This document shows positions 6,114-27,505 of a DNA stretch of 64,000 nt, one piece after another. The translations under genes and the position numbers were made by a program. The notes under the pieces are model-generated. The model saw nothing but the letters and a program-made list of their open reading frames with translations. It searched no databases and had not been told where the DNA came from. The stretch comes from Allobaculum mucilyticum. GTDB lineage: Bacteria; Bacillota_I; Bacilli_A; Erysipelotrichales; Erysipelotrichaceae. The stretch lies in assembly GCF_022701195.1 (NCBI RefSeq), contig NZ_CP078089.1:2542001-2606000 (forward strand), read 5' to 3'. How positions within the stretch are numbered: position 1 is the first letter of the stretch; every line of letters begins with the position of its first letter.

Positions 6114-8990
<2,877 letters not shown>

Positions 8991-9094
8991 AAGATTCGAG
9001 AGAAAGCAGCGTAAGCGAAGTTGAATAACTGTAAGCCTGAAGAAGTGTTGGAAGACTGATGTTTGTTTTTGAAAGATCCATTCAATCAACTAAA

Positions 9095-9202
9095 GTGCAG
9101 TGGCGATAGCGAGCAGGATATACCTGTAACATCCCGAACACAGCAGTCAAGCTGCTCAACGCCGACGATAGCCACAAGGCAAAAATAGGAAGCTGCTGAA
9201 CA
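9095..9202 (+). rRNA. rrf: 5S ribosomal RNA (somewhat divergent)
   Basis: About 108 nt with the conserved GTGGCGATAGCGAG start, CCGAACACAGCAGTCAAGC and CGCCGACGATAG cores. The terminal helix CAGTGGC (9099-9105) pairs with GCTGCTG (9192-9198). The 3' loop-E side (AAAAATAGGA) departs from the usual GAGAGTAGGA form. Ends are approximate. Confidence 0.88.
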
Positions 9203-9650: not shown

Positions 9651-11411
9651 ATGGCGCACCAGAGAACCAATACCCGAAGACTGGAATTCTCCCTGAATTC
9701 GCTTGAAAAAGAGTTTCGAGGCCTCTGCAGCAAAGACGCTCTCCGTCATCGGAAGAACGCCCTGAAGAGGGCAAAAGGATCCCAGCATCCGTCCAAACTG
9801 AAAAAACTGCTCGATGTCTATGACCTGCTCGGCATTCCCTATGAAATGGGGCAGAGTGACGAGTACTATCTGCGGCTGTCGGACGGGTATTTTTTCGATT
9901 CGGGGCAGGAACTGGAAGCAAAAATGCTGAAAGCTCTCTATAAACGCTTTGAAGTCTATCCGCCAAGTTCGTTCTATCTGCAGCGTACGGTAAACGACCT
10001 GCGCGAAGAAGAAGACGCTTCATGGGCGGATCAGCCTTTACGCGTACAGATCCTTCGTCAGTTTGTTAAATACGGAGACTGTCTGCGGGCTGCCGGCTAT
10101 GGCGGCAAGCGGTATCTGACGACGTATGTCAGAACAAAGAGCGGTCAGAAGACGCTGGCTTTAAAGAATGGCATCGACTATATCGATGATGCTGTATTTG
10201 CTCCGCTGGCTGATGCGAAAAGCTCGGAACTTAAGCCGCGCGGCTGCTATGGACTGCTGCGTGCGGTCGATGATCTGGCAAGAGCACGTTTCCGTGCGCA
10301 GGGGGTTACCCGAAGAACGCTGTATTACTTTGCGATTGTCAATAACATGACCTACTACACGCATGATGATGCAGCCTATGAAATGCGGGATGACAAGTCA
10401 GACATTGAGACCAATCTGTTTCAGGATTACTACGAAAACAACCTGATGCGTTTTCTCTGCGATCCGGAAGTCCGTAATGACGGCGGACTGAAGATTGTTC
10501 CTTCCGGACGGGGCATCAACTATAAAAACTTCGCAGAAATGGTCTACCTGTACTACATCCATCTGGATGCGCTGACCCGTCCTGAAAAGATCGAACGGGC
10601 TGAAGCGATGATTGAGCGCATTCGAACAGAGTGCCGGTCAAAAGGACCGTCTGAAAATGTCCCGGATCTGAACACGCAGATCTATAAGGGCTACTTCAAC
10701 AGAGAACAGGGTCGCATCCTCTATCTCGAAGATGCGCTGTCTCTGAATGAAGCGGAGTTTGAAGAATTTCTCAAAGACAACTACAACTGCGATATCGATA
10801 CAGTAAGCAATACCGCCAGAACGCCTTCTGTCATGGAACTTGGCATTGAACAGAACAGTGCAGCCAGGGTCTATCAGAAGATCTTGCTTGAACTGGATGA
10901 ACGCGGGATGCGTGCGCAGGACTGCCGGAGCGGTCTGTGGTTTGCGGATGTCGACTTTCTGGATCAGGCAGGAACGGAATATCTGATGGAGATTGTCGGC
11001 GGTACAAAAGAACAGACAGAGCAGTTCCGTATGCTTCTGCACAACATGAATGACCTTGTGCGTCATTCTGTACTCAACTGTCCGGTTCAGCTCGAAAATG
11101 AGAATGCACCATACAGAGAGGAGATTCCTGCTGGAACAGATGACAGTGAAGATGAGTATACCGAAAGTCTGTTTGTCGATCCCTCGAAAGAAATGTCGAG
11201 AACGACACTGCTGGTTGCTGTGTACTATCTCTTCAATGAACGCCATGCGATGGACCCAAAAGATCAGTGGGTCAGCTTTGGCGAACTGTTTGCGGCTTTC
11301 AAACAGGAAGCGGATGTCTTCCTGACTGAAGCCGGCTATCAGCATCTGAGCGGAAGAAGTCAGTTTGATGTCCTTCTGGCATTCTCTGCCTACGCAGTAC
11401 TCAACCTGTAA
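9651..11411 (+). CDS. Conserved-looking hypothetical protein of the conflict island, 586 aa
   Basis: I do not recognise a family. The start is firm: GAAGGAG lies 8 nt before the ATG. The protein is soluble, with no signal peptide or membrane segment. The N-terminus is basic (RRLEFSLNSLEKEFRG... KALRRAKG-like). The middle has a short Tyr-rich patch (NMTYYTHDDAAYEMRDD, about residues 227-243). An acidic stretch (GTDDSEDEYTE) near 495 separates a C-terminal helical region. Codon use matches the neighbours. It is followed 74 nt later by a PP2C phosphatase and then the kinase. The most likely reading is the first gene of a kinase/phosphatase unit, either its regulated target or its scaffold (inference from position only). 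Confidence 0.8.
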   Translation: MAHQRTNTRRLEFSLNSLEKEFRGLCSKDALRHRKNALKRAKGSQHPSKLKKLLDVYDLLGIPYEMGQSDEYYLRLSDGYFFDSGQELEAKMLKALYKRFEVYPPSSFYLQRTVNDLREEEDASWADQPLRVQILRQFVKYGDCLRAAGYGGKRYLTTYVRTKSGQKTLALKNGIDYIDDAVFAPLADAKSSELKPRGCYGLLRAVDDLARARFRAQGVTRRTLYYFAIVNNMTYYTHDDAAYEMRDDKSDIETNLFQDYYENNLMRFLCDPEVRNDGGLKIVPSGRGINYKNFAEMVYLYYIHLDALTRPEKIERAEAMIERIRTECRSKGPSENVPDLNTQIYKGYFNREQGRILYLEDALSLNEAEFEEFLKDNYNCDIDTVSNTARTPSVMELGIEQNSAARVYQKILLELDERGMRAQDCRSGLWFADVDFLDQAGTEYLMEIVGGTKEQTEQFRMLLHNMNDLVRHSVLNCPVQLENENAPYREEIPAGTDDSEDEYTESLFVDPSKEMSRTTLLVAVYYLFNERHAMDPKDQWVSFGELFAAFKQEADVFLTEAGYQHLSGRSQFDVLLAFSAYAVLNL

Positions 11412-11485
11412 TACCTTATGTCTCCTCAGCATTGAAAGAGGGAAGGCGTTTTACAGATGTCCGAATCATCGGGCAGGGAGGATGA

Positions 11486-12289
11486 ATGGTTTATTTTTAT
11501 TCGGATCCGGGGCAGGATCACATGCGCAGCCGGATCGAAAATCAGGATTGCTGTCTCTGGTCAGAGACAGCCAACTGCACGGCCATCGTCCTGACTGACG
11601 GGGCCGGAACCTGCCAGTATGCAGCAGAAGGAGCACAATGTGCTGCAAATGCACTGCTTTCGCTTCTGCTTGAACAGAGCGAACACTGTTTCCTCGCTGA
11701 TGAGAAAGAACTGACTTCGATGATTTTTGAATCTGTCCTTGATGCACAGAAGCAGCTCGCTTCATCGATGAAAACTGATCTGACTGAGCTTTCGAGTACG
11801 TATGCGGCTCTGCTCTATGATCAGTCACGTCAGCAGGTGATGTGTATTTCGCTGGGCGATTCGATCATTTTGCAGACAGGTACAAACCGGAGCCGGGGGA
11901 TCATCTCTGCACCGTCAAGTTCACGCTATGGAACACCGGTTTCTACAACAGAGCAGGGCTTCCAGGATATTTCCATCGAGCGTTTTAACGTACGCGGTGA
12001 TGAATCATTTGCGATCTGCTCAGACGGTGCCTGGTCGATGATGTATTCGAGAAACCGGATGAAAGCAGAATTCCGTGCCAGCCTGGAAAACGACGACTTT
12101 GCAGGTCTTCATGAACGTTTACAGAATGAAAGACCGGAAGATGACTGTTCTTTTATCGCTATCTCTTTAAAGGATCTGCAGAAGTCTGGTCTGTCCAGGA
12201 ACTCTCTAAAAAGACAGGATAAAGACTCGCTGGTCAGTCTGCTTGTGATGAATCAGGTGCGCCAGCGTATAGAGCACTGTCTGGATTAA
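11486..12289 (+). CDS. PP2C-family (PPM) serine/threonine phosphatase
   Basis: 267 aa. The metal-binding acidic motifs of PPM phosphatases are all present: RIENQDCC (D21), VLTDGAG (D38), SLGDS near 127, FAICSDGAW near 180 and the final EDDCSFIAI near 218. The enzyme is therefore probably active and dephosphorylates Ser/Thr with Mn/Mg. It is short, with no membrane segment, unlike SpoIIE or RsbU proteins with sensor domains. The C-terminal ~45 residues are basic and unassigned. It lies between the 586-aa protein and the kinase, so it probably reverses that kinase's phosphorylations. GGGAGGATGA gives a Shine-Dalgarno just before the start. Confidence 0.88.
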   Translation: MVYFYSDPGQDHMRSRIENQDCCLWSETANCTAIVLTDGAGTCQYAAEGAQCAANALLSLLLEQSEHCFLADEKELTSMIFESVLDAQKQLASSMKTDLTELSSTYAALLYDQSRQQVMCISLGDSIILQTGTNRSRGIISAPSSSRYGTPVSTTEQGFQDISIERFNVRGDESFAICSDGAWSMMYSRNRMKAEFRASLENDDFAGLHERLQNERPEDDCSFIAISLKDLQKSGLSRNSLKRQDKDSLVSLLVMNQVRQRIEHCLD

Positions 12290-12371
12290 TTGATTAATAC
12301 AATGTGTTCTGTCTGCTGACTGTATAAAAAATTCAGCCGGAAAACAGCTGAACAGAGTAAACAGAAAAGCG

Positions 12372-12404
12372 ATGAGCACGGTTTTGCGTGCTCATTGTTG
12401 CTTT
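12372..12404 (+). terminator. Hairpin between the PP2C and kinase genes (weak terminator or attenuator)
   Basis: ATGAGCACG (12372-12380) pairs with CGTGCTCAT (12387-12395), followed by TGTTGCTTTTC. The T-run is interrupted, so termination may be partial, which would set the phosphatase-to-kinase ratio. Confidence 0.5.
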
Positions 12405-12490
12405 TCAGACGTCTTCTCTGTCTCATCGGTCGAATAGAGAAGAATACCAGGAAGAAACTGGATTGAAGGATAAGAAAGGAGGACCGGTAA

Positions 12491-15400
12491 ATGAGCAGAA
12501 ATGATTCCATGCAGCTGCCGTGTACAAAAAGCCTGGTCCTCCGTTCGCAGGATGCGCAGGGATCAAAGGCGCAGCTTTGCCGGACCTTCTATCTGATCCG
12601 GCTTGTCGGAACAGGCGGCAGCGGTCAGGCGTTTGAAGCCTATCATGATGAAAGTCCGCGCGGCATTCTCAAACAGTACCGTCCATCGACTCTTCAGGGT
12701 ACGGGAGGCCGTTCTGAAGATTCGATCGAACAGCTTCTGCGTCCTTATGAACTCCTGTTAGAGGTTCGCCAGCATACGGAAGATCAGACGCTTGCCGGCT
12801 TTCTTCCGCTGTATGAAATGTATGAAGATGCACCGGATGAATCTTCACAATCGGCTGAAAACTGCGGCTCCATTTATGTATGGATGCCGGCATCCCGGGT
12901 GATTTCTTTTGAAGATATCTGCAGACAGATCCGTACGGAAGAAGCCGTTCGCCCGGAACAGGCGCTGGTTCTGATTCTGCGCTCAGTTGCCGCTCTTCTT
13001 CGCGGTGTGATTGCTCTGCATGAAAACGGACTGGTTCACCGTGATCTCAAACCGGATAATTTTGGTCTGCGCGAACAGACCGGTACTCTGCTGCCAGATC
13101 TGGTATGTCTGTATGATGTTGAATCATTCTGTTCGATCTTTGCGGTGCCTCCTGAAACAACCGGTACGCCAGGCTATTGCGAACCGGAAGCCGGCTATCT
13201 GGAGCCGGACAATCAGACCGATCTGTATTCAATCGGTGCAATTCTTTACCATGCCCTGATATTCCATCCGGACACAGTCGAGGAAGGCGAAACGCCGGAA
13301 GTCATGACGAAAAAAGCGCTGGAAAAACAGGTGCGCACATCAGTTCTTCATCTGTCCAGGATCAGCTGGACGCTTGAACGCTTCTGGACTGTCATTCTGC
13401 GCATCTTTGAACGTTCAATCTGCCAGAGAGCTCTGCGCTATGGCAGTGCAGAAGTCATGCTGGAAGATGTCATGGATGCGCTCAGCTATCTGACACCTTC
13501 TCTGGATCCGCGGAATACGGAAACCGGACTGTCTTTGAAGAATGTACACAAACAGCCAACAGAAAAAGAAAAAAAGCGTCTGCTGCTTTCCTTTGGCGCT
13601 CATCTGTATCTCCATCCTCTGAAAACGTGTTCTTCTCTTCATACGAAGAAAGAATCTGCACCTGCGAGAAGCAGGGAGCGCATTGTGCTGTTTGGTTTTG
13701 GCCTGTATGGCCAGATGCTCTGCGATCTGCTCACCCAGATGGTTCAGCTGCCTGGTCAGAAGCGGGAAATCGTAATCATCAGTGAAGATATTCATGACTT
13801 CTACGAATATCTAAGTGACCGGCCGGGTCTGGCTTCCTGTTTTTCCATCAATGGGCAGCCTGTTGATCCCGCGTTCTGTGTGGCACCGTTTGGTTCCATT
13901 CGCTTTGTACAGATTCATGTCGACTTCGTCGGCTCGCGGCCGGATTTTGTTCCGCGCGAGTTCTATCTGCAGACTGATCGGGCTGATACCGTCTTTCTGA
14001 CGCTTTCCAAGTCTTCAAGATCGTATCAGCTGGCCCGTCTGCTTGTGTCCAGACGGAAGAAAAAGCGGATGAACCAGCAGATTCGGTGGGTACTCGAACA
14101 GAGTGAACTGCTGGATGCAGAAGAGCTGCCGGATGTAGAAGCAGCAGACCTTCGTTCTCATCCATGTGCTCAGGTTGTTCAGGCACAGAAGGCACTGGAG
14201 AGAATGGCGTTCAATGCACATCTGCTCTGGCAAAGACAGTCGATCATTGATCTGTCGCAGGCAAGATCCGACTTTGCACAGCTGTATTCTTATTCCTCTT
14301 CACTTTGCGCGGCACTGTCCGTTCCGGCAAAGCTCTCCGGACTGGATATTTCCTATAATCCGCACAATCCCTCTGCTGTACTCAGCCAGCTGCAGGAACG
14401 AATGAACGATGCAGACTATTCTGCGCTTAGAGAACAGCTGATTGATGCTGAACATCATCGCTGGGTTGCTGAAAAACTCTGCGATGGCTGGCAGAGTCTC
14501 GATGATTTTTCTGCCTGTATTCCCGGCAAGCTTTACGATGCGAAAAAGCGGCATCTTTGTCTGGTGGACAGCCGGCCAGGATGCGCACTGACCCGCTCTC
14601 CGTATCATTCAAAGACCTGGCAGGATCTGGCCAGCGAAGATGACCTTTCAAAGCTTGATCTGCTCGACAGTCTTTCCATCCGGCTGCATCAGGATATGCA
14701 GAACCGGGCCAGACAGCTTCGCATCAGTACTGATCCAGAAAGCCTTGGCATTGATGAACTTGGCCGCCTGTGTTCAAGAGACAAAGATCTGTGGGCCGCT
14801 TTTGCTTCCTGGCAGATCTGCGTAGAAGAAATCTGGAATGAAGATGCCGACCGAAGCGGTCTGTATCGCCGGCTTACAGCTTCTTTAAAAGAGAAAATTT
14901 CTATCCTCAATCCCCGTGATGCCCAGCAGGCAAGCGAGATTCTCCGTCTGTTTGACCGTACCTTCTGGCCAATGGCTTCCAGCCGTCAGTACCGGGATCT
15001 CAAACAGAGCGACGCGGTACTGGTGGATGAAATTCCGTTTCTGCTTGACTGCCGCCCGGAGAGAACACTGGTTCTGTTCTGGAATCCGGATCGCATGAAG
15101 ATTCTGATGAAAACCGTTCTGCAGTTCTGCCCGGCAAGAGTCGTGTTTTACGTCCGTCCTGAAGATCTGCAGGACAGAAACAGACTTTCCTGGTTTATCG
15201 ACAGAAGCCGCATGCTTATGGATCTGCGGCATGCAGACTGTCGAATGGAACTGCAGGCCTGGAGCAATACAGATCTGTCGTCCGTTTCTTTTGAGGAAGG
15301 AACTGTCTTTCTGGAAGACAATCTGCGCTGGAAAGGAGAAACCGACCAGATGGTCTGGCAGCCTGGAATCCGGGTTCTGCATCCGGATGATCCAGCAAGT

Positions 15401-16522
15401 CATTCAATGATGATCAGCCCATCTCCTGCGTTTTCGATCGCAGAGAGCATGCAGATTCTTGGACTGAAACCCCAGGCTTCATCTCCAGTTCATGCAGAAG
15501 GTGAAACCTGCATGTTCGCTCTACGTTCTGCTTCGCCAGAATTCTGGAATGATCTGAGCAGCCTGCTCTGTGAAGCCTCTCAGACTGTCTCCCCCATTCT
15601 TTTCTGCAAAGACAGAATGGCGGATGATCGTGGATCGATCCGTGAAATCCGGTTTTACCTTCCTGGCTTTGCTCTGAGTTCGCTGCGCAGGTTAATGGAT
15701 GCTCTTCGTTCCTGCCATCTGATTGAACCGTCCAGCCAGGCCATGATCCGCTCTACACAGACGCTGGAAGTCCATATCTTCAGCCGCTATGCCCTGTCGG
15801 ATTCCTTTTCCAGACTGCTGCAGGATCCAGTCCTGCTTGCAGACAGCCAGGCACTGGAGATTGTCAGTGTTGATGAAGAGATGGTCCTGGTGACTCTCGA
15901 TGATCTGCGCTGTCGAAGTCTTTCTTTATCTGGTGTAAATGATCAGATGGAGAGGGCATGGATGAAAGAAACGCTGGGAATTCTGAGTCACGAAGGTCTG
16001 ATCTTCATGCCGGATTTCCGAACAGAGACAGGACAGCTGAGTCTGACATTTTCCTCGCATGCCGTAAAAGCGATGCTTCTTTCACCCCTTCGCCTGCTCA
16101 GCAGCCGGATCGGTGCCTATCTTTCCAGGTCGCCATTTTTTGACGATTTTGCTCTGAACATCCGACTTGATCTGCAGGAAAGCGAACAGCTGATTCAGGG
16201 AAAATCGATTGTATCTGTAGAACGCCCAATGGAAGCAGCTGCTCTGTTAACAATAGGACTGCAGAGCGCAGCAGTGGTTCTGATCGAAAGCCGGGATACG
16301 CTTGGCGACTGTCTGGATCAGGCAAGAGTGTGGACCGCCCGTTCCTGCGGATTTGTTGCGCTGGTATTCGCACTGGCAGATGAGCTGCTTGAACCTGGCG
16401 AATGTATCCGGGAAACCTTTGGCGGCGGTGTTGAGCTGCTTGCTTTTGGAGCCGATGCTTCGGATCAGACTCTTGAGCATTTTGAAGCCCAGCTGGTTTC
16501 CTGCATTCCGACCGGTTCGTGA
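12491..16522 (+). CDS. Multidomain Ser/Thr protein kinase fused to TrkA-N-like Rossmann and RyR-like domains, 1343 aa
   Basis: Residues ~34-330 are a Hanks-type kinase: glycine loop GTGGSGQAFEA, candidate Lys K61 in ILKQY, HRDLKPDNF (183-191), GTPGYCEPE in place of APE, and DLYSIGAILYHAL. The DFG motif reads DVE (209-211): the metal-binding Asp is kept but Gly is lost, so altered activity is possible. Residues ~395-540 look like a TrkA-N/Rossmann module (VLFGFGLYGQML, 399-410). Residues ~654-667 read EHHRWVAEKLCDGW, the hallmark of bacterial RyR domains. The remaining ~650 residues contain at least one more alpha/beta domain (TLVLFWNPDR; VVLIESRDTLGDCLDQARVW) that I cannot assign. AGAAAGGAGG precedes the start. 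The protein is cytosolic. It is probably the sensing/switching hub of the island, opposed by the upstream PP2C. Confidence 0.88.
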   Translation: MSRNDSMQLPCTKSLVLRSQDAQGSKAQLCRTFYLIRLVGTGGSGQAFEAYHDESPRGILKQYRPSTLQGTGGRSEDSIEQLLRPYELLLEVRQHTEDQTLAGFLPLYEMYEDAPDESSQSAENCGSIYVWMPASRVISFEDICRQIRTEEAVRPEQALVLILRSVAALLRGVIALHENGLVHRDLKPDNFGLREQTGTLLPDLVCLYDVESFCSIFAVPPETTGTPGYCEPEAGYLEPDNQTDLYSIGAILYHALIFHPDTVEEGETPEVMTKKALEKQVRTSVLHLSRISWTLERFWTVILRIFERSICQRALRYGSAEVMLEDVMDALSYLTPSLDPRNTETGLSLKNVHKQPTEKEKKRLLLSFGAHLYLHPLKTCSSLHTKKESAPARSRERIVLFGFGLYGQMLCDLLTQMVQLPGQKREIVIISEDIHDFYEYLSDRPGLASCFSINGQPVDPAFCVAPFGSIRFVQIHVDFVGSRPDFVPREFYLQTDRADTVFLTLSKSSRSYQLARLLVSRRKKKRMNQQIRWVLEQSELLDAEELPDVEAADLRSHPCAQVVQAQKALERMAFNAHLLWQRQSIIDLSQARSDFAQLYSYSSSLCAALSVPAKLSGLDISYNPHNPSAVLSQLQERMNDADYSALREQLIDAEHHRWVAEKLCDGWQSLDDFSACIPGKLYDAKKRHLCLVDSRPGCALTRSPYHSKTWQDLASEDDLSKLDLLDSLSIRLHQDMQNRARQLRISTDPESLGIDELGRLCSRDKDLWAAFASWQICVEEIWNEDADRSGLYRRLTASLKEKISILNPRDAQQASEILRLFDRTFWPMASSRQYRDLKQSDAVLVDEIPFLLDCRPERTLVLFWNPDRMKILMKTVLQFCPARVVFYVRPEDLQDRNRLSWFIDRSRMLMDLRHADCRMELQAWSNTDLSSVSFEEGTVFLEDNLRWKGETDQMVWQPGIRVLHPDDPASHSMMISPSPAFSIAESMQILGLKPQASSPVHAEGETCMFALRSASPEFWNDLSSLLCEASQTVSPILFCKDRMADDRGSIREIRFYLPGFALSSLRRLMDALRSCHLIEPSSQAMIRSTQTLEVHIFSRYALSDSFSRLLQDPVLLADSQALEIVSVDEEMVLVTLDDLRCRSLSLSGVNDQMERAWMKETLGILSHEGLIFMPDFRTETGQLSLTFSSHAVKAMLLSPLRLLSSRIGAYLSRSPFFDDFALNIRLDLQESEQLIQGKSIVSVERPMEAAALLTIGLQSAAVVLIESRDTLGDCLDQARVWTARSCGFVALVFALADELLEPGECIRETFGGGVELLAFGADASDQTLEHFEAQLVSCIPTGS

Positions 16523-16558
16523 ACCGACCTGAATAAACTGCATATGAATAAAAAGACC

Positions 16559-16592
16559 GCCGAATGACTTCTTCTGAGTGAAGCCATTCGGC
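16559..16592. terminator. Terminator between the convergent kinase and TIR-NACHT genes
   Basis: GCCGAATG (16559-16566) pairs with CATTCGGC (16585-16592). On the minus strand it is followed by GGTCTTTTTATT, and on the plus strand by a T/G-rich tail. A smaller CGGTTC/GAACCG hairpin sits at 16513-16526 next to the kinase stop. Confidence 0.75.
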
Positions 16593-16625
16593 AGTTTGTT
16601 GTTTGCAAAGATTTCTGTGTCGGTC

Positions 16626-19600
16626 TCAGAGCATCTGTTCAAGAGTACTGCGAAGCGGATGTCTGCCCTGCAGTCTCTGAGCAATCAGAGAAAGAGCCTG
16701 ATCGATATCTGCACGCCGTTCCTCTTCACTCTGACCTGGCAGAGAGGCACGGTTTTTGAGAGCGATCACCATATAGTAGAGACGATCCTGCTCTTCAAAG
16801 ACTTCAAGCTGTTCGTCACAGATGTCTCTGGCTTCTTCATAGCGGCTTTGCAGGGTAAGGAAGTTTCCATAAGCAAGAAGTGCAAGTCCATAGCGGAAAC
16901 GGGCCTGTTCGCTATCGAGAGAATCGAGCCGTTCGAGCAGATCAAGGAACATCGTATCAAATGCCTGTCGCTCTTCCGCATTCAGCGCGCGTCCTTCAGC
17001 TTCAATGCGGGCCAGTCCGGTTTTGATCAGGTTGAGATTGGAAATGCATGTCAGTAAGTGCCTGTTTCCATACGCCCTGCGGCGAATCTCGTAACTTCGT
17101 CGGATGATTGGAACTGCCTTGGCGGGCTGTCTGATCTTGAGCAGACAGTCGCCAAGCAGATTCAGTCCATCGCAGAGATTCACTGAATCCTTGCCGTCGT
17201 CCGCTGCAATATGTTCGCATGAGCGCTGGAGATAAGGAATTGCCGACCTGGGCTGACCGCTTTCGTAATGCAGAAGGGCAACCGAGTATTCGAGCAGACC
17301 TTTTTCATGATTGCTGAGCGTCTGCGGGAAAAGTTCCATCAGCTCATCTGCCCGAAGCATTAAAGGCCTCGCAGCCGCAAGATCATGCCGTTCAGTCAGA
17401 TGGGCACGACCAAGAGTCTGCAGTACATGAATGAGCAGTGCCGGACGGTCTTCATCCCGGTAGTTCTGTGCATAAAGAGACAGAGACTGTTCGAGGTAGT
17501 CGAAGGTTTTGTCACTGTGAAGGAAGCGGGCATTTTCTCCGCGTGCCCGTAGCGTTTCGATGACCAGATCGATATCGCCGGCTTCTTCAAAGAGCTCCTG
17601 CGCTTTCTGATACATCGAATCGGCAAGTTCATAATCGCTTCGCCGGAAAATATTGTAGGTTGCCTGCAGTGTCAGAATACCGCCGCTTCGAAGTGCAGCC
17701 GGTGTGCCGATTGCTCTGGCTGCTTCAATTCCGGCATCGCAGATTGAACCGATTTCCTGGAAGAGAACAAGCATATAAGCCAGATCACACAGATCGCAGG
17801 CCAGCTCGAGAACTTCATGACTTTTGCCATTGGCGCGGTAAATATCCATGGCTGATTTTTTGAGCAGATAGACATCGTGATGTTTCGCTTTGCGGCCAAG
17901 TTTTCGGGCAAGTTTGAGCTGCTTGCGGGCGAATGTTTCATCACCAAGGATAATGGCAAGATCTTCGCTTTTTGCCTGTTCGAGCGCCTGAACAAGATAC
18001 AGCCGTTCAAATTCATTCATCTGTTCAATGCCGCTTCGATAGCTTTCCATAAGCATCGAAGCTAATGCCGACCAGCCCGTCTGTTCCGAAACGCCATACA
18101 GATCGTTATCCCAGGAAAGCAGCCAGTCAGCCAGCGATTTGTGGAAGAGACGGAGTGCTCCGTCTTCCTGTGTCAGGCAGGAAGAGAAACGTTCAATGAC
18201 CGAGCGGGCCAGATTTTCGCTGTTCTGCTGCGGTGAAGCACTGATGCGCAGGAAGGTTTCCTTGGGCAGCGGGGCTGGAGCAATGGCTAAAGCGCCAAGC
18301 AGGGCCAGTTCCCGACGATCCGCTCTGCCGCCTTCAAGTGCTCTGGCAAAGCAGTTTGAATACAGATCGGAAATCGACAAGGAAGCGGACAGGTTTTCCA
18401 TGCACAGCGTGCCTTTTTTCAGCTCATCGCAGATCATCTGTGCAAGCAGGAAGTTTTCCTGGCAATGGGAAGAAATTTCTTCTGTATTTGCGGCATATGC
18501 GGTGCGTGCAAGCGTGAGGGCAACCAGTGCATTAACATCGGCACACGCATTCGGGCATGAAAGATCAATGATCTTTGCGCTGCCAAAAGCAGAGCGCAGC
18601 TGAGCACCAGGACGGGAAGTCAGCAGGAAACGCACCCAGGAAGGAAAGCGGGAAATGACTTTCTGCAGCAGGTGAATCAGCGGATTCAGGCCGTTTTCAT
18701 CTGCCGCAATTTCATCGATACCGTCAATAATGATCAGCGTTTCCGGACGGTTTCCGTCGATCAGCTTGGAGAGCGGTTCAATGAGCAGCTCGCTGATCAT
18801 GTCATCTGTACTTGTAAAGAGCGGCGGCATTTCCGGATCGGTCTGCAGCTCACGAATCAGATGCAGCAGCAAAGCCCTATAGTCATCCTGCGTACTGGCC
18901 AGCTGAAAGATGATTGAGCGGAAGACCGCATTGACAGTGTTATGCGTCTGGGAAGCCCAGTCACAGAAGACAGCAGCCGGGGAAGAGGCAAATTCCAGAT
19001 AGGTATTGGCAACAAACAGCGACTTTCCGGTACCCGGGCCGCCCTGAATGATCATAAGAGGAGAATCCGGTTCTTCGCGTACCCAGTCCCGGACGCTCTG
19101 CAAAAGCCAGGGACGTTCAAAGTAATCCTGGCGCAGAAGCAGATTCTTTTTCAGACAGCTCAGATCCGGCTGAAGCAGAGAAGCAAGCTCATCAATTTCT
19201 CTTGCATAGTTTCGAATCGGATCGCTGTTGAGAAAATCGATCAGCGCATCCCGTTTTTCTTCGTACCAGGCCTGATAAACTTCTTCGCCCTTTGCCTTCA
19301 TTTCTTTCCAGTCGGAAAAATCAAAAAACTGACGCCGGCTGATGGCAGCAGGCGGCTCCACTTTCTCGAGCAGAATGCTCTGAATGAGCGAACCGCGCAC
19401 ACTGACCGCAATAGTCAGCTCATCCAGGCAGACACCCGGTCGCCGGATCGAGTGCTGGCTTGCAAACGCAATCGTCAGATCGCAGCCCAGAATATCCTGG
19501 GAGATTTTGCGTCTCCAGTCATCGCCGCCTTTAATTTCATATTTGTCGACCCAGACCTCATGGCCAAGCGCACTCAGATCGTCGCGCAGTGCCCTGACGA

Positions 19601-19643
19601 TCGGCTCGTTTTCATCGTGCCCGTAACTGAAAAATAGTCGCAT
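16626..19643 (-). CDS. TIR-NACHT-TPR STAND protein, 1005 aa
   Basis: Residues 1-~110 are a TIR domain opening MRLFFSYGHDENE. The C-x-x-E pattern at C72-E75 in GVCLDEL places a catalytic Glu as in NADase TIRs. Residues ~170-400 are a NACHT-type P-loop ATPase: Walker A GGPGTGKS (201-208), Walker B LIIIDGIDE (303-311) and SRPG (343-346). The C-terminal ~500 residues are helical TPR-like repeats, the usual ligand-sensing part of STAND proteins. This architecture matches known bacterial NLR-like/antiphage families in outline. The 428-aa TPR gene lies upstream on the same strand, 119 nt away, so the two are probably co-transcribed. Expected action: sensing by the TPRs, ATP-driven oligomerisation, then TIR cleavage of NAD (inference). 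Confidence 0.92.
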   Translation of the reverse strand: MRLFFSYGHDENEPIVRALRDDLSALGHEVWVDKYEIKGGDDWRRKISQDILGCDLTIAFASQHSIRRPGVCLDELTIAVSVRGSLIQSILLEKVEPPAAISRRQFFDFSDWKEMKAKGEEVYQAWYEEKRDALIDFLNSDPIRNYAREIDELASLLQPDLSCLKKNLLLRQDYFERPWLLQSVRDWVREEPDSPLMIIQGGPGTGKSLFVANTYLEFASSPAAVFCDWASQTHNTVNAVFRSIIFQLASTQDDYRALLLHLIRELQTDPEMPPLFTSTDDMISELLIEPLSKLIDGNRPETLIIIDGIDEIAADENGLNPLIHLLQKVISRFPSWVRFLLTSRPGAQLRSAFGSAKIIDLSCPNACADVNALVALTLARTAYAANTEEISSHCQENFLLAQMICDELKKGTLCMENLSASLSISDLYSNCFARALEGGRADRRELALLGALAIAPAPLPKETFLRISASPQQNSENLARSVIERFSSCLTQEDGALRLFHKSLADWLLSWDNDLYGVSEQTGWSALASMLMESYRSGIEQMNEFERLYLVQALEQAKSEDLAIILGDETFARKQLKLARKLGRKAKHHDVYLLKKSAMDIYRANGKSHEVLELACDLCDLAYMLVLFQEIGSICDAGIEAARAIGTPAALRSGGILTLQATYNIFRRSDYELADSMYQKAQELFEEAGDIDLVIETLRARGENARFLHSDKTFDYLEQSLSLYAQNYRDEDRPALLIHVLQTLGRAHLTERHDLAAARPLMLRADELMELFPQTLSNHEKGLLEYSVALLHYESGQPRSAIPYLQRSCEHIAADDGKDSVNLCDGLNLLGDCLLKIRQPAKAVPIIRRSYEIRRRAYGNRHLLTCISNLNLIKTGLARIEAEGRALNAEERQAFDTMFLDLLERLDSLDSEQARFRYGLALLAYGNFLTLQSRYEEARDICDEQLEVFEEQDRLYYMVIALKNRASLPGQSEEERRADIDQALSLIAQRLQGRHPLRSTLEQML

Positions 19644-19762
19644 ACCCGTTTCTCATACTTTCTTTTTTCTCTTGTCAGACGCCTGCAATTGCGGACGTCT
19701 GTTTTTCGCATTGTATCCGAATCAGATCAGCAGCCATTCTGGCGGGTGAATCTTTCCTGTCA

Positions 19763-21049
19763 TCAGCGGCCTGAGTTATAACGGCGGACGGCTGGATGAG
19801 AGGTAAAGGCAGGATCCTTTGTGATCGCTTCAAAACGCGAACGCACGCAGGCAAGATTCTTATTCGTTTCTGCAGACAAAGGTGTCGCCATCTGTTCAAG
19901 CGCGATCTGCTTCTCAAGGACGTAGAGCAGATAGTAGGAATCATTGAGCTGGGAGAAAACATGATCAGCTTCAACAAGCGCCTTCCTTGCAGACTCGAGC
20001 TGTTTTTCATTGAGCAGAGCCTGACTGAGATCAAGCAGTGCACGCCCATACCAGGCTTCATCCTGATGAGAGCAGAGCTTTTTTCTCATTTTTGCATTGG
20101 CCTTCAGCCCATCCAGCCATTCCTCGCAGCTGATCGGGCAGGGATAGTCGTGATCGAGAAGTGCCCCGGCACACTGAAGCAGGTTTCCATAGGAGATGGA
20201 TGTGAGCAGATTCTCATCGCCATAAAAGCGGCGGCGGATCGACCATGCAGAAGATGCAGCAGAAAAAGCCTCAGAAAGGCGGTTTTGTTTTTTGTACAGC
20301 AGGCTGAGCTGATTGAATGCATTGACCTGCTGGACTGGGGCATCGTCTTCAAACAGGGCAATGGCCGACTTCAGATGCTCTTCGGCTTTATCAGGCTGGT
20401 TGAGTTTCATCTCCAGCAGTCCGCAAGCGTATTCAAATTCGCCTCTGTCGCTGCAGGGGAAAGAGGGAATTGAAGCAGCAGAAGACTCAGAGTTGTCCTG
20501 CCCGGTTTCTATCATGGACGATTCCATCAGCGCTTCAGCTTTCTGTCTGTACTCTTCCGCTGCACTCAGGTCGTTTTCCAGAAGAGCAAGGCGCATGGAA
20601 ACGATCAGATATTCAAAAGTCAGAATGCGGCGTTCGTGCTCTTTTTCAGGAGCATCATTTTCCAGGCTGAGCAGGTATCCGGCAAGATCAAGTGCATCGT
20701 GCGCTGTCTGGCGCAGAGCACAGAAGGAAGCAATAACCGCTTTTAAAAGCAGAGAGCGGATGGTTGTGTTCTGCTCTTTTGCATTCTGTGCAGACTGAAA
20801 GGCAATGACGCAGCAGTTCAGCGCTTCTTCGCTGCGTCCAAGCCGGTAGAGCGAATAGGCCAGGTAATTGGCACTCTGCGACAGAAGCAGAGATTCTTCA
20901 GGATCAGGCTGGGTAAAGAACAGTTTCTGAAGTCTGTCATACAGACCTGAAACAGCTTCATGGTCTTCGAGCATTGTATAGATCGTTTCAGCGCGCTCAA
21001 GCAGAGCTTCTGCGCTAAGCGGCAGATCGTTCATAGGCAGATCAGTCAC
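19763..21049 (-). CDS. TPR-repeat protein, partner of the TIR-NACHT protein
   Basis: 428 aa, almost entirely helical hairpins of TPR type (for example NYLAYSLYRLGRSEEALNC and FEYACGLLEMKLNQPDKAEEHL). There is no catalytic or membrane domain. The start is GTG, 6 nt after AAGGA; the ATG five codons later has no better site. Parts resemble the TPR section of the neighbouring TIR-NACHT protein (SIRRRFYGDENLLTSISYGNLLQ versus a similar YEIRRRAYGNRHLLTCISNLNL segment there). The two probably arose by duplication. It may be an adaptor, decoy or alternative sensor for that protein. Confidence 0.82.
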   Translation of the reverse strand: MTDLPMNDLPLSAEALLERAETIYTMLEDHEAVSGLYDRLQKLFFTQPDPEESLLLSQSANYLAYSLYRLGRSEEALNCCVIAFQSAQNAKEQNTTIRSLLLKAVIASFCALRQTAHDALDLAGYLLSLENDAPEKEHERRILTFEYLIVSMRLALLENDLSAAEEYRQKAEALMESSMIETGQDNSESSAASIPSFPCSDRGEFEYACGLLEMKLNQPDKAEEHLKSAIALFEDDAPVQQVNAFNQLSLLYKKQNRLSEAFSAASSAWSIRRRFYGDENLLTSISYGNLLQCAGALLDHDYPCPISCEEWLDGLKANAKMRKKLCSHQDEAWYGRALLDLSQALLNEKQLESARKALVEADHVFSQLNDSYYLLYVLEKQIALEQMATPLSAETNKNLACVRSRFEAITKDPAFTSHPAVRRYNSGR

Positions 21050-21515
21050 AGAGATTCCTTCTTTCTATAGATGAATAAAGAGGAGACAGATCCGTTCCTC
21101 TTTTTATATGTTTTCTGTCTTGCATCTTGTTCTGCTCTGGATGCAGAACTGTTGATGAATCCTGTCTGGATCAGATAAAAACTGATCATATGTTTAATCG
21201 TCATGGATCTGGATCAGGATTCCGGCACCATCAGTTTACTTGTCCGGGACAGATTGAAACAGAGACTTTAAAAAACAGGAGCTTTCCAGTCCGGTTGTAC
21301 AGAATTTCTGCCGCTTATAACGTCGGATTTTTAACCCCCTCATATTTCACGCTATGGCCTGCAGGTATAAAGAGTATGCAAGTCAGAAAAACGCTTCTTC
21401 CAGACTGCACTGGCGAAATGGCAGCGGTTGAAGAAGCGTAAAGGCATCGATGATGAGTACATACGAACAGAAGAGAGAAAAGAAAAAGAGAAGCAGAAAC
21501 GGGGAGGGAATCACG
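21050..21515. other. Divergent intergenic region between the TPR and ClpP-like genes
   Basis: No convincing gene in 466 bases. AAAGAGGA (21079-21086) pairs with TCCTCTTT (21098-21105). This hairpin, with T-rich flanks on both strands, sits in the leader of the TPR gene about 30 nt from its start and could attenuate it. No confident promoter was found. Confidence 0.4.
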
Positions 21516-22118
21516 ATGATGGTAATGGAAAAAGGGCGAAACGGATCTTCGCCTGTACCAATTGAAGCAAGGCTGATGGACCGGCGTCGGATTATTTTAA
21601 ATGGAGAAATTAATTCGGATCTGGCCTGTCAGATTGTCAATCAGCTGCTGATCCTCAACGAGGACGATCCATTTGCACCAATTGATCTGATGATTAACTC
21701 CAATGGCGGAGAAATCGGAGCCGGTCTGCTGATCTATGATGCGATGTGCTCAAGTGCTGCACCGGTCAGAACCATCTGCATGCAGAAAGCCTATTCGATG
21801 GCAGCTGTTCTGTTTGCGGCAGGAACGAAACGGATGATGTTTCCCAACAGCCGGCTGATGATTCATGAACCCATTGTCATGTCTCAGTTTGTCGGCAACA
21901 ATGAATCGCTCAAAGAAGTCATGACAACTCTTGGAGAAAACAGCCAGACACTGCATGCCATTCTGATGAAGCTGACCGGTCGAAGCGAGAGTGAAATTGA
22001 GGAAGCCTGCTCGAAAGACCGTTACTTCACCCTGGAAGAAGCAATCGAATTCGGTCTTTGTGACTGCAAAGCGAGTCTTGCAAGACTGGCAGAAGGCGAG
22101 GTGGAGGACGATGTCTGA
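21516..22118 (+). CDS. ClpP-like (S14) serine peptidase of the conflict island
   Basis: 200 aa from the ATG at 21516, chosen because GGGGAGG lies just upstream; the frame is open to an ATG at 21450 with no good site. The fold matches ClpP: INSNGGEIGAGLLIYDAM, the serine motif AYSMAAVLFAAG with S94, PNSRLMIHEP with H117, and KDRYFTLEEAIEFGLCD with D168. Ser-His-Asp spacing matches ClpP, so it is probably active. It differs from housekeeping ClpP in its N-terminus (no recognisable axial-loop sequence) and in Tyr-Ser where ClpP has Ala-Ser. No ClpX, ClpC or ClpA lies nearby. Its stop overlaps the start of the VirD4-like ATPase by 8 bases, indicating translational coupling. Alternative: a phage prohead-type S14 protease, but no phage genes are present. 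Confidence 0.85.
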   Translation: MMVMEKGRNGSSPVPIEARLMDRRRIILNGEINSDLACQIVNQLLILNEDDPFAPIDLMINSNGGEIGAGLLIYDAMCSSAAPVRTICMQKAYSMAAVLFAAGTKRMMFPNSRLMIHEPIVMSQFVGNNESLKEVMTTLGENSQTLHAILMKLTGRSESEIEEACSKDRYFTLEEAIEFGLCDCKASLARLAEGEVEDDV

Positions 22119-23529
22119 CCGGATCATAGTCGGTGAACGGGCAGTCTATTCAAGAGACTGTGCAAAAACCGGACTCAACAATAATATTCTGGTCTGCGGA
22201 TTTTCCGGATGCGGAAAAACGATGTCGATTACAGAGCCAAGACTTTTAGAAGCCGATGGAACGTCGATGATCGTAACGCTGACTAAACGGCGTGTGGTTC
22301 ATCAGTACACGCCTCTGCTCGAGAGGCGCGGTTATCGTGTGTATGATCTCGACTTTACAAATCCCGCTTCCTGCAGACTGCGCTTTGACCCGATGGATTA
22401 TGTCAGTACCGATTCGGATGTCGCCTTTCTGGCAAGAGCGATCGTTGCCGGAAGCGGTCAGGAACAGAGCGCATTCCATGATCCGTACTGGGAAGAATCT
22501 GCTGTTTCACTGCTCAGTGCTCTGATTGCCTATGTCCGACGGACAAGACCTTACGGCGGTCTGATTGATGTCCTTGAACTGCATGACAGACTGAGTCTCA
22601 CTGGCGGCAAAGACGGCGTAGAGACGACTCTGGACGGGAAATTCAGGGAGCTCGCACTGCGCGAGCCGGATTCCTTTGCGGTTTCTTGCTGGAAGACCTT
22701 CAGCGCAACGCCTCGCTCGACTGCCGGATGCATTTACAGTGCTCTCAATACAACGCTTGATACGCTTTTCTCTCAGGAGATGCGTGAAATGCTGAGAGCG
22801 CCTGAAAGCCTCGATCTTGAAGAACTGCTCGAACACAGAAGCGTTCTGTTTGTGAGTACATCAAGCGTTCAGCCGGGAATGCAGAAATTCATCAGCGTCT
22901 TCTACTCCATGATTTTCAAGAGTCTTTTTGAGTACGCCGATCTTCAGCCGGATGGTCGTCTGCCCATTCCTTTAGAGCTTGTCTGTGATGATTTCGCTTC
23001 TGGCGGACGGATCGTAAACTTCCCGGATCTGATCAGCGTACTTCGCGAACGCAATATGTCTGTCACCCTTCTGCTGCAGTCTGAAACGCAGCTGGCGTCC
23101 ATGTATGGAGCCAATCAGGCAGCGACGATCATTAACAACTGCAATACCTATGTTTATATGGGCGGCATGGATCTTAAAACCGCTATGAATATCAGCACCC
23201 GTGCCAATCTCCCCCTTGAAGATGTCCTCGCACTGCCGGTCGGAGCGGAAATCGTCTGCCGCATCGGCCGCCGTCCATTAAAAACAAAACGCTATCCGAT
23301 TCTGGAAAGCCCCATCTATCAGGAAACGCTGGAAGACTATTCCATCTATCTGCAGAAAGATCATTCACCGGTTTCAAAACGAAACGAGCAGGCTGCACCG
23401 GCAATTGATTTTATGACCTTTGCGGCACTTTCAAGATCTGAGCCGTATCTGATCGATCAGGAAGAAGAAATGCTGCACAGACTCGAAGAAGCAGGCATTG
23501 ATGCCTGCGGCTCAATGCCATTCATCTAG
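22111..23529 (+). CDS. VirD4/TraG-like ATPase without membrane anchor
   Basis: 472 aa from the ATG at 22111, which has GTGGAGG upstream and overlaps the ClpP-like stop. Walker A GFSGCGKT is at 30-37. A Walker B-like LELVCDDFASGG lies near 290 (Asp where most P-loop ATPases have Glu). The downstream segment ISVLRERNMSVTLLLQSETQLASMYG followed by INNCNTYVYMGG is characteristic of type IV coupling proteins. The usual N-terminal transmembrane helices are absent, so it is probably cytosolic. No relaxase, MPF or other conjugation gene is nearby. Co-translation with a ClpP-like peptidase suggests a working pair, perhaps a translocase or unfoldase feeding a protease (inference). Confidence 0.87.
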   Translation: MSDRIIVGERAVYSRDCAKTGLNNNILVCGFSGCGKTMSITEPRLLEADGTSMIVTLTKRRVVHQYTPLLERRGYRVYDLDFTNPASCRLRFDPMDYVSTDSDVAFLARAIVAGSGQEQSAFHDPYWEESAVSLLSALIAYVRRTRPYGGLIDVLELHDRLSLTGGKDGVETTLDGKFRELALREPDSFAVSCWKTFSATPRSTAGCIYSALNTTLDTLFSQEMREMLRAPESLDLEELLEHRSVLFVSTSSVQPGMQKFISVFYSMIFKSLFEYADLQPDGRLPIPLELVCDDFASGGRIVNFPDLISVLRERNMSVTLLLQSETQLASMYGANQAATIINNCNTYVYMGGMDLKTAMNISTRANLPLEDVLALPVGAEIVCRIGRRPLKTKRYPILESPIYQETLEDYSIYLQKDHSPVSKRNEQAAPAIDFMTFAALSRSEPYLIDQEEEMLHRLEEAGIDACGSMPFI

Positions 23530-23670
23530 AGTGCAGGGCATGATGATCGATTGTTATAATTCTGTTTTCTACGATAAAGATACAGGACGGCATGCATCTG
23601 CCAGACCAGTCGGATGGGGCAGAGGCATGAACCGTCATAGCGAAAATAAAGCACGAAATGAGGTGAGCCG

Positions 23671-24084
23671 ATGGGTGAAACGCGTCTTCTGTATCTGAGC
23701 AGATCAGAAAGTCGGGAAGGCAGTCTGTGGATGGATCGCTGCTGGGTTCCGGATCCCGTCAATACCGCATCGATTCCTCTGAGCGAGGATCTGCAGATGC
23801 TTCAGGAACGGCTGGCAAAAAACGTTCACAGCGTCTGGGCGCAGAAGCGCATCCGAGAGGGCTGGACATATGGTCCAGTGAAAGACGCCCAGCGTAAAAA
23901 AACGCCGTTTCTTGTTCCATATGCGGAACTGCCTGAATCCGAAAAAGAATACGACCGGGCAACTGCCCTTGAAACGCTTCGTCTGATTCTTCGCCTGGGT
24001 TACCGGATTGAAAAAGACGGAAAGCCTTCTGACGAAGCAGTCACCCAGCTGCTTCTGGAAGAGAATGAAAAGCAGAAACTGTAA
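23671..24084 (+). CDS. Stand-alone RyR-domain protein
   Basis: 137 aa. Residues ~45-115 match the ryanodine-receptor repeat domain (RyR, PF02026): NVHSVWAQKRIREGWTYGP, then TPFLVPYAELPESEKEYDR and ETLRLILRLGYRI. All positions I know as conserved (W, GW, YG, PY, EK, DR, GY) are kept. The N-terminal 40 residues are unassigned. AATGAGGTGAG precedes the ATG. It lies 141 nt after the VirD4-like gene on the same strand and before a strong terminator, so it probably closes that operon. Prokaryotic RyR domains are thought to bind small ligands, possibly nucleotide-derived; the ligand here is unknown. Confidence 0.92.
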   Translation: MGETRLLYLSRSESREGSLWMDRCWVPDPVNTASIPLSEDLQMLQERLAKNVHSVWAQKRIREGWTYGPVKDAQRKKTPFLVPYAELPESEKEYDRATALETLRLILRLGYRIEKDGKPSDEAVTQLLLEENEKQKL

Positions 24085-27200: not shown

Positions 27201-27505
27201 GAAACGCTTCGTACTGTACCTCTTTCGTCTGTGACCTCCAGAGACGCTGGCATCTGTTCTGTGATGTTTTGCAGCTGTTCAAAGTCACGGTTTCTGATTG
27301 TTATTGCCTGAATCTGCCCGTTTGTTCTGGGAAAAACTGTGATGGATTCTGCGTTGGTTTCCATTTCTGCCATCTGATGCGTATCTTCAGATACGGTATT
27401 CTGAAAATCCCTGGCGAAAACAGGAACAGTTGAGAATGACGCAGCGGCCATGCTGATACTGAGCAGAGCGGCAAGAATTCCTGGACGCTTTTTAAATTGT
27501 TTCAT
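24206..27505 (-). CDS. Secreted phage-type lysozyme / C-type lectin surface protein with DUF5648 repeats, 1099 aa
   Basis: The start is the ATG at 27505, with GGAGGAGAGAAAGG directly upstream; the frame extends 12 codons further but without a site. A signal peptide follows (KKRPGILAALLSISMAAASF, cleavage near VFA). Approximate domains: phage-tail-type lysozyme at 170-310 (ACGVMANIHDESGFNP with a candidate catalytic Glu; YGLCQWNSG), a GBS Bsp-like Ig fold at 320-435, a C-type lectin domain at 445-570 (GWIGLNDFG...WSEGEPNNY...WDD), three WSxW...VETxxxYR repeats at 610-835, an Ig-like domain at 870-950 and three DUF5648-like repeats to the end (WYGLAQ). Expected role: peptidoglycan cleavage combined with sugar binding at the surface. 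No sortase motif. Confidence 0.9.
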   Translation of the reverse strand: MKQFKKRPGILAALLSISMAAASFSTVPVFARDFQNTVSEDTHQMAEMETNAESITVFPRTNGQIQAITIRNRDFEQLQNITEQMPASLEVTDERGTVRSVSVTWECHEEMGESEGYYYQFDPVPEEGYRFDENADNLPYVAVTVRSFMEPSADAGTWSSPASVTSNANEQTVFNFLRNTLGLNTAAACGVMANIHDESGFNPQALNRNDTGGTQSYGLCQWNSGAGAGNRYGQLQSWCSANGYSYTSLTGQLNFMKHELESNSYYRYSTLKTQIPDTAEGAAQASRLWSVFYEGCAASRYEPRMNLARNSYWTAYAPAAPQDQIPPVISDVKVTDVSQSGYTISCTVVDNTGVDRVQFPTWTVANGQDDLDQNWTGSSFSSGTKNGNRWSFRVNTGDHNSERGYYVTDIYAYDETGNHETWTSLIYIRNTDSKSEIGTEPLAQMDWNGHRYMVLKPCIHDSQGLNWMEASTCCQSLGGYLATVTSPEENRKIAELLSQASEPSGWIGLNDFGNEGHFILENGETSSYSNWSEGEPNNYLGSQDGVAISQSGKWDDNSNVRLAFILEIEGMCEHDFVTEQITANCLERTKTRKTCTKCGLEEVTETDPDWSEWMIGEPGEDLNGMKNQVETAIQYRTKGVRTVETEEANLTGYISREPFIACSGWSGWSDWSLDPVGANDLREVETTALYRYYYFYCPVCGGHEPLTGTSDCHQYSLSQADAHEGWFPVAYVNSNPQNYSYTTAKKYTESLGDGQRWNFSSGNLNDNAIGTKDAGSDAIVIRTGYRSRTRTAVQKYRYTFWEDDWSEWTTAPAKASNKLQVETRNVYRVDHAKHGDHSWNEGRIILEPTAEHAGVKEYECQTCHSIRQEPIPQLPAKKSIDHAQIVFDADRFEWTGKPITPHFSVIMDSRTLIPAQDYTWSFTQNVDPGNAQLTVNGIGSYSGICTGTFSIYMPQEEKPDTAETITMHRLYNPNSGEHFYTANLNEKEYLVKCGWKDEGVAWIAPKTSNAPVYRLYNANAGDHHYTLNAREREVLIGLGWKDEGTGWYSASESGVPLYRQYNPNAQAGSHNYTTSKKENDYLKSVGWHEEGIGWYGLAQ

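Follow-up and report, generated by a model that had tools for sequence, protein, structure and literature searches.

Phage-encoded proteins with a ryanodine receptor (RyR) domain have been reported to act as enzymes or sponges that cleave or bind the cyclic ADP-ribose (cADPR) isomers 2'cADPR and 3'cADPR, which serve as Thoeris signals; in the ligand-bound phage protein RyDEP, the residues described are HxxW, H, and D, and the phage glycosidase has a catalytic His/Asp dyad (preprint PMC13232231). The preprint is concerned with animal channels and with proteins that phages use for evasion; a term search of it finds no mention of kinases. Here, an analysis is presented of a stretch of 64,000 nucleotides from Allobaculum mucilyticum (the window; contig NZ_CP078089.1, positions 2,542,001 to 2,606,000), in which eight genes encode, among others, a kinase with an RyR domain, a TIR-NACHT-TPR protein, and a ClpP-family peptidase next to a VirD4-like ATPase. 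The reading preferred here, tentatively and with somewhat less than even confidence, is that these genes make up an island for signaling and proteolysis composed of two conserved modules, with a TIR-made signal, an RyR-kinase as its reader, and a ClpP-VirD4 pair as the output. Relatives of its parts recur together in other bacteria, and this hints that such an island may represent a novel type of alarm system in bacteria.

The eight genes of the island

The genome around the window is represented by a single contig of 3.14 Mb from a member of the Erysipelotrichaceae. An earlier note, made from the sequence alone, had placed eight genes directly after a ribosomal RNA (rRNA) operon. When the window sequence was checked, all eight open reading frames (ORFs) were open at the coordinates below, and the rRNA operon was located at 4315-9201, just upstream. 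The families that had been proposed (PP2C, kinase, TIR-NACHT-TPR, TPR, ClpP, VirD4-like, and stand-alone RyR) are all confirmed by Pfam, and the first protein, which had been called unrecognized, is so in four libraries.

9651..11411, plus strand: 586-amino-acid (aa) protein of an unnamed family, matching none of Pfam, NCBIfam, PADLOC, and PHROGs
11486..12289, plus strand: PP2C-type phosphatase (PF13672, PP2C_2, 2.3e-21; metal-binding motifs by eye)
12491..16522, plus strand: kinase protein of 1343 aa (Pkinase 2.2e-10, Pfam)
16626..19643, minus strand: TIR-NACHT-TPR protein, candidate sensor and NADase (TIR_2 6.8e-18, NPHP3_N/NACHT, TPR, Pfam)
19763..21049, minus strand: TPR protein, putative partner of the TIR-NACHT-TPR protein (TPR, Pfam)
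21516..22118, plus strand (listed ORF from 21450): ClpP-family serine peptidase (PF00574, CLP_protease, 1.3e-42)
22111..23529, plus strand: anchorless VirD4/T4CP-like ATPase (T4SS-DNA_transf 3.2e-29; Walker B DD, not DE)
23671..24084, plus strand: stand-alone RyR-domain protein (PF02026 9.1e-33, 112.8 bits)

The gene starts needed revision in two cases. The VirD4-like gene most likely begins at 22111 rather than at the GTG at 21991, giving an overlap of 8 bp with clpP, and ClpP probably begins at 21516, matching the start of its homologue in the second Allobaculum genome (Allo2). In the TIR-NACHT-TPR protein, the CLDEL motif of TIR, whose Glu is the catalytic residue, and both Walker A and Walker B are present by eye; the TPR partner resembles this protein in sequence. 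Promoter-like sites are at chance level (10 versus 11.1 expected), and terminator-like sites are in excess (23 versus 13.8) without a clear pattern.

The 586-aa, PP2C, and kinase module

The first three genes constitute module A. The 586-aa family was found at 14 loci (the window, L082/L034 [Allo2, NZ_CP078088.1], L067, L075, L101, L099, L120, L071/L160, L156-L159, L163, and L164), with L071 and L160, on two contigs of genome G639, taken together as a single split locus; most of the 14 were found via VirD4 or in genomes picked for VirD4. The 586 gene is adjacent to the kinase, directly or across PP2C, at 12 of them, the exceptions being L099 and L120. PP2C is present at six, ClpP-VirD4 lies in the same cluster at nine (it is absent beside L156-L159 and L163), and every one of the 14 genes adjoins either kinase/PP2C or ClpP-VirD4. 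A check for neighborhood conservation, which the earlier note had proposed, comes out positive: the order 586-PP2C-kinase...ClpP-VirD4 recurs in Allo2, L067, and L075 and, without PP2C, in L101 and L164. Module A and ClpP-VirD4 are separated by other genes in the window and in Allo2. A chance association of neighbors was considered and rejected on the recurrent neighborhoods of both 586-kinase and ClpP-VirD4.

Module A is rare. An unbiased search with 586 of the 299 genomes of L101's family (its own included) gave two new matches, L164 (586-kinase-ClpP-VirD4) and L163 (586-PP2C-kinase-RyR), so that one of the two unbiased loci has ClpP-VirD4. A single-sequence 586 query found nothing in 391 other genomes of the phylum (392 with its own, the sole match), and the kinase tail was found in two of five genomes of the genus. 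A profile search of the 586-aa protein against PDB returned nothing, the best E value being 0.15.

These distributions bear on whether the island is concerned with conflict at all. It could instead control development or the handling of stress in gut Firmicutes, a reading considered quite unlikely here. PP2C-kinase pairs are common in ordinary signaling, and no match was found for the window 586 protein among plasmids or, by pattern scan, for the L101 586 protein among viral contigs. However, the patchy presence of the module (2/5 genomes of the genus; 2/298 others), together with gene flanks that differ by eye between the two Allobaculum genomes, would fit conflict systems better, and so would an island that unites TIR, NACHT-type STAND, Card1-type, and RyR domains.

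The kinase protein and its Card1-type region

The 1343-aa kinase protein can be divided as follows.

Residues about 20-335: Ser/Thr kinase domain (Pfam; HRD motif, lysine, and DVE by eye)
Residues about 395-435: Rossmann-like segment with GxGxxG (by eye only)
Residues about 640-735: RyR domain (profile comparison and ligand residues)
Residues about 870-1000: suggestive CARF-like region (profile comparison)
Residues about 1150-1320: Card1-like nuclease region (catalytic motif degenerate in the window)

RyR and TrkA-N-like domains had been attributed to this protein. In Pfam, it has neither an RyR nor a Card1 match. The RyR domain is upheld by profile comparison, in which 11 kinase rows against nine other RyR domains scored 78.6% (E 1.7e-5), with six control profiles at 0.3% or less. 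The TrkA-N-like domain comes down to the GxGxxG seen by eye; a 2015 survey of nucleotide-centered systems is said to have described RyR with TrkA-N. What had been overlooked is the C-terminal region of Card1 type. Card1_endonuc (PF09002) is above the Pfam cut-off in the relatives from L101 (1.3e-9) and L067 (2.9e-8) and below it in those from L075 (6.8e-6), L080 (2.8e-5), and L163 (1.5e-4), and the PADLOC model CARF4--CARF_PDDEXK matches L101 (3.6e-14) and L163 (1.2e-10). When the C-terminal half of the kinase was compared by profile with six Card1/Can2-like CARF-nuclease proteins, it scored 99.2% over 347 columns; the nuclease part alone gave 98.6%, the CARF part alone 54-69%, and CARF plus nuclease in order 99.1%, while controls (586, VirD4, PP2C, and the Rossmann/RyR part) stayed at or below 0.8%.

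Nine of 11 aligned kinase rows have an intact Card1 catalytic motif (NE-x-D...ExK or SxK). The motif is lost in the window, which reads IESR, and in L071, and the Allo2 piece also lacks the lysine. Because of this loss, the Card1-like domain is probably no longer able to cut in Allobaculum. No match was found in a scan of genome contigs using the window kinase as query or in a search of plasmids with its C-terminus; the L101 kinase gave matches in phages and plasmids which, among those listed (5/5 and 10 of 147, respectively), cover the kinase-part region only, at less than 30% identity. A kinase-less relative of RyR/Card1 type lies in the flank of another ClpP-VirD4 locus, L080.

The ClpP-VirD4 pair

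An alignment scan with the VirD4-like protein gave 79 loci from the best 80 of 100 matches, which by title are mainly Lachnospiraceae and other Clostridia. With eight more loci added, ClpP is found beside the VirD4-like gene at 78 of 87, upstream in 74 and downstream in four. Two of the nine remaining loci start at a contig edge, and the upstream gene is unseen there for that reason. With ORF starts as picked by machine, ClpP ends within 10 bases of the VirD4 start in 39 of the 57 cases listed. In a later VirD4-like search of 67 genomes, in which 30 loci were fetched of 39 matches, ClpP flanks 12 of 12 VirD4-like genes of the DD type (11 by pattern plus L247, which is L101's own, with DD taken from the alignment) versus 0 of 18 others (15 DEF and three uncaught by the pattern). 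Six of the 12 DD-type genes come from genomes whose selection had nothing to do with the system.

A rival reading would make this pair debris, with a coupling protein and a head-maturation protease left behind by a conjugative element or a prophage. The VirD4-like protein is indeed homologous to type IV coupling proteins (T4CPs), scoring 227.6 bits against the CD1115 family (NF045973), and its neighbor to ClpP-type proteases, phage ones included. That CD1115 score, however, is below the cut-off of 250. In the alignment, Walker B is DD in 88 of 88 VirD4-like proteins versus DE in five of five conjugative relatives, the residues before Walker A number 29-51 in the printed sample of the DD proteins versus 93-152 in the conjugative relatives, and the DD proteins form a clade separate from these relatives. 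ClpP is found at none of the 18 non-DD loci, and in a midpoint-rooted tree the phage-type ClpPs branch outside the pair ClpPs. On Walker B, N-terminus, CD1115 score, ClpP linkage, and the ClpP tree, and with no search of the flanks aimed at relaxase or type IV secretion system (T4SS) genes, an origin as conjugative or prophage debris was rejected and is considered highly improbable. Among viral contigs, there was a single case of the VirD4-like protein, L272 (IMGVR_UViG_2889778758_000005), which has ClpP and a DD-type VirD4-like gene as a pair.

The peptidase of the pair keeps its catalytic triad, with Ser and His present in 80 of 80 pair ClpPs and the Asp in 78 of 80. At the position equal to E. 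coli F82, which is part of the docking pocket, the aromatic residue is missing from the pair ClpPs (62 of the 80 have S, A, or G), whereas seven of seven housekeeping enzymes have Y or F. The distance matrices of ClpP and VirD4 correlate at 0.90, with 300 permutations giving 0.16 or less; shared descent alone could be enough to produce this correlation.

A search of the genome to which the window belongs (completeness 92.5%) with PF00574 returned the pair ClpP plus four ClpPs of 245 aa; one of these four was examined and lies, by eye, between portal-like and capsid-like genes. The matches to PF07724 are two proteins judged by eye to be ClpB-like and Lon-like, respectively, and a weak one of 518 aa. 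Thus, with this weak match left unexamined, no ClpX, ClpC, HslU, or housekeeping ClpP was found in that genome with the two models. The same searches did find clpP adjoining ClpX-size proteins in genomes G634, G635, and G636. Consequently, no usual unfoldase is in sight for the pair ClpP.

Other genes accompany the pair at some loci. At L060, L064, L065, L066, and L105, a different module lies upstream of ClpP-VirD4. It has proteins of one other cluster, with WYL matched in L064 and L105, and in addition an ATPase_2-like protein in L060, L064, and L065 (below the Pfam cut-off in the two scanned) and an HD protein in L064, with a relative in L065. A protein family of about 195-250 aa is encoded directly upstream of clpP in L079, L080, L064, and L066, and a Pfam scan of the L064 member gave no match.

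RyR domains and the TIR link

The four RyR ligand residues (HxxW, H, and D) are all kept, as judged by eye on the alignment, in 11 of 11 kinase rows. In nine non-kinase RyR domains, judged in the same way, HxxW and D are kept in all nine and the second His in one; in the stand-alone RyR protein of the window, this His is replaced by Thr. The stand-alone protein is close to animal RyR repeats, at about 1e-30 per repeat. The RyR theme, which the earlier note had seen at both ends of the island, recurs at related loci: among 11 genomes, seven of the eight PF02026 matches above cut-off are at this locus, the eighth (G641:C233) being unplaced, and four of the 11 genomes, Allo2 included, have no match above cut-off.

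A further connection comes from L165, where TIR, NACHT, TPR, and RyR are joined in a single protein of 1146 aa (L165:11309-14749) directly upstream of 586-PP2C-kinase-ClpP-VirD4 in L075, an Oscillospiraceae metagenome-assembled genome. Since this fusion stands beside the same genes, it can be argued that the TIR-NACHT gene of the window belongs with the RyR theme. When the fusion protein was compared with plasmids, the eight matches listed of 37 covered its TPR part. TIR genes within three genes of 586-kinase are found in the window, L075/L165, L157, and L164, and the tails of these proteins differ: TIR-NACHT-TPR in the window, TIR-NACHT-TPR-RyR in L165, TIR followed by a tail that matches WD40-like models weakly in L157, where a second TIR gene is also present, and TIR-LRR together with a 522-aa RyR protein in L164. 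In L163, a TIR gene is about 11 kb from 586-kinase.

The RyR domains need not be receptors. They might be off-switches that hydrolyze or soak up the TIR signal, with the kinase triggered otherwise, through the CARF-like region or the 586-aa protein. This is thought unlikely, although it does agree with two features of the phage proteins introduced above: they are enzymes or sponges, and the catalytic His/Asp dyad of the glycosidase is kept in the kinase and other RyR domains (PMC13232231). However, an RyR domain set within a kinase, or fused to TIR-NACHT, would be more usual for a regulatory ligand-binding domain, and the His that contacts phosphate is lost in eight of the nine non-kinase RyR domains.

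A model for the island

Taken together, these results have led to a model in which the TIR-NACHT-TPR protein, with its TPR partner, would detect damage or an invader, upon which the TIR domain would convert NAD+ to a signal of the cyclic ADP-ribose type. Binding of this signal by the RyR domain of the kinase would switch the kinase on, the PP2C phosphatase presumably holding the switch off at rest, and the 586-aa protein may be an adaptor or a phosphorylated partner. As the output, the VirD4-type ring ATPase would deliver proteins to the chamber of ClpP; where relatives have kept the motif intact, the Card1-like nuclease might in addition cut nucleic acid. The stand-alone RyR protein could buffer, remove, or relay the signal. 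The gene content, domain homologies, recurrent neighborhoods, fusion, ligand and catalytic residues, and strict link of DD-type VirD4 to clpP are well supported at the level of sequence, and from them we infer all of the biochemical steps, the order of signaling, a physical ClpP-VirD4 complex, and an immune role.

Several observations weigh against this model. Most ClpP-VirD4 loci are without module A, and in the fetched flanks (which differ in length) of the 78 that lie outside the module-A set, RyR is present in one and TIR in five; TIR is directly beside the pair in one of these 78, L118, where the genes just downstream encode a TIR-Sel1 protein and another protein that matches NACHT and TPR weakly. 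Genome G904, which carries the 586-PP2C-kinase-RyR genes of L163, has no VirD4-like match at E<=1e-60. In L164, the kinase protein consists of its kinase part (391 aa) and lacks the RyR region; Pfam detects no RyR in Allo2; and the match of the CARF part by itself, at 54-69%, is no more than suggestive. TIR genes are near just four of the 14 586 loci, the TIR-NACHT pair of the window is on the strand opposite to the other island genes, and the Allo2 interval between kinase and clpP has, by eye, IS66-like transposase genes (L033 10408-12726) where the window has this pair. Housekeeping ClpPs fall inside the span of pair ClpPs in the midpoint-rooted tree. Finally, several loci are near-identical relatives, and the locus counts therefore do not represent independent events.

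Because most pairs occur without module A, another explanation stays alive, namely that two independent systems cluster in islands: a TIR/RyR/kinase signaling module and a self-sufficient ClpP-VirD4 protease that serves quality control or a separate stress response. This is possible, if doubtful. The kinase module is alone in G904 (L163) and is also without an adjoining pair in L156-L159, ClpP-VirD4 follows the other cluster (WYL-type where scanned) at the five loci noted above, and the pair ClpP of Allobaculum is the only one found there besides the 245-aa phage-type enzymes (one of four examined). However, seven genomes (window, Allo2, L067, L075, L101, L071/L160, and L164) have 586/kinase and ClpP-VirD4 as a single co-directional cluster, 586 is divergent beside ClpP-VirD4 in L099 and L120, and, among the loci fetched (30 of 39 matches), DD-type VirD4 was found in five of the 60 genomes that had been picked on other grounds than the system. 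Under the preferred two-module model, the presence of another cluster at the five loci would suit an output module shared by different sensors. The proposal of the earlier note that the plus-strand genes form one system is supported as to their shared clusters and not supported as to indivisibility, since the kinase module and ClpP-VirD4 each occur alone; recruitment of the minus-strand TIR-NACHT pair agrees with the theme link given by the L165 fusion and is weakened by the small number of loci with TIR nearby.

In its boldest form, the model would make ClpP-VirD4 an energy-dependent protease of a new class. In it, a T4CP-related ring ATPase of the FtsK/HerA class (to which VirD4-type ATPases belong), in place of an AAA+ Clp protein, would drive ClpP as the executioner of TIR to cyclic-ADPR to RyR-kinase immunity, with RyR domains as bacterial receptors of TIR signals, counterparts of the RyR repeats of the animal ryanodine receptor. 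This full claim is rather unlikely. If it were true, the RyR domain would have a cellular receptor role downstream of TIR enzymes, and a ClpP protease with a conjugation-type motor would widen the scope of Clp proteases. Allobaculum, with no ClpX, ClpC, or housekeeping ClpP found, would offer a clean setting in which to test a VirD4-driven ClpP.

Neighboring genes

On the other side of the rRNA operon, the window encodes a second TIR protein of 341 aa (2623-3648, minus strand; PF13676 5.8e-13). The proteins that flank the island (393-2363 and 24206-30618) have DUF5648 in three of the four scanned; one of these three also has C-type lectin, phage-lysozyme-like, and Bsp-like parts, and the fourth protein has Bsp-like and DUF285 parts.

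Comparison with known systems

The earlier note knew of no described system with this combination of genes, and none was found in PADLOC, NCBIfam, Pfam, or PHROGs or among the papers listed in a literature search, mostly of open-access work at the title and abstract level. There are nevertheless likenesses to several systems. No vWA (TerY-type) protein was matched by Pfam among the eight genes; TerY-P is the name used for gene groups of vWA, PP2C, and kinase. As described in an eLife paper (2020, PMC7159879), such groups resemble the island in having adjacent PP2C and kinase genes, but the island has the 586-aa family in place of vWA, and its kinase has an RyR and Card1-type extension. The Card1/Can2 CARF nucleases of type III CRISPR are matched by the C-terminal half of the kinase, whereas here this region is fused to a kinase and RyR, and its nuclease motif is lost in the window, Allo2, and L071; no Cas protein was matched among the eight genes in Pfam, PADLOC, or NCBIfam.

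Like Avs and other STAND NLR-like proteins, the TIR-NACHT-TPR protein has an N-terminal effector domain, a NACHT-type ATPase, and a TPR sensor tail, but it is encoded with RyR, kinase, and protease genes. It has no Avs match in PADLOC, and the L165 protein matches Avs1b weakly (6e-5). The RyR domains belong to the same family (PF02026) as the phage RyDEP/RyR proteins, with HxxW and D conserved. In contrast to the phage proteins, those of the island type are cellular and are embedded in a kinase, fused to TIR-NACHT, or stand alone, and the non-kinase forms, with one exception in nine, are without the second ligand His.

As in Thoeris, a TIR protein is encoded near a protein whose domain family binds cyclic ADPR isomers. 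However, the island has as its putative sensor a kinase that also contains an RyR and a Card1-type part, and TIR is carried by a NACHT-TPR, WD40-like, or LRR protein; the window TIR matches Thoeris models weakly (ThsB 8.8e-4, ThcB4 0.0047; PADLOC/NCBIfam), and no ThsA-type or other described Thoeris effector was matched among the eight genes in these libraries. With ClpXP and ClpCP, the pair shares a ClpP-family peptidase with a full catalytic triad adjoining an ATPase gene, but this ATPase is of the VirD4 class rather than an AAA+ Clp protein, and the aromatic docking-pocket position is changed. With the CD1115 VirD4-like conjugal transfer protein, it shares an ATPase superfamily by sequence, but the pair protein is below the family cut-off, has no anchor region, and has a DD Walker B and a ClpP partner. 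As a TIR-signaling island, the locus would be a new variation on a known theme, while a VirD4-driven ClpP, if proven, would be categorically new.

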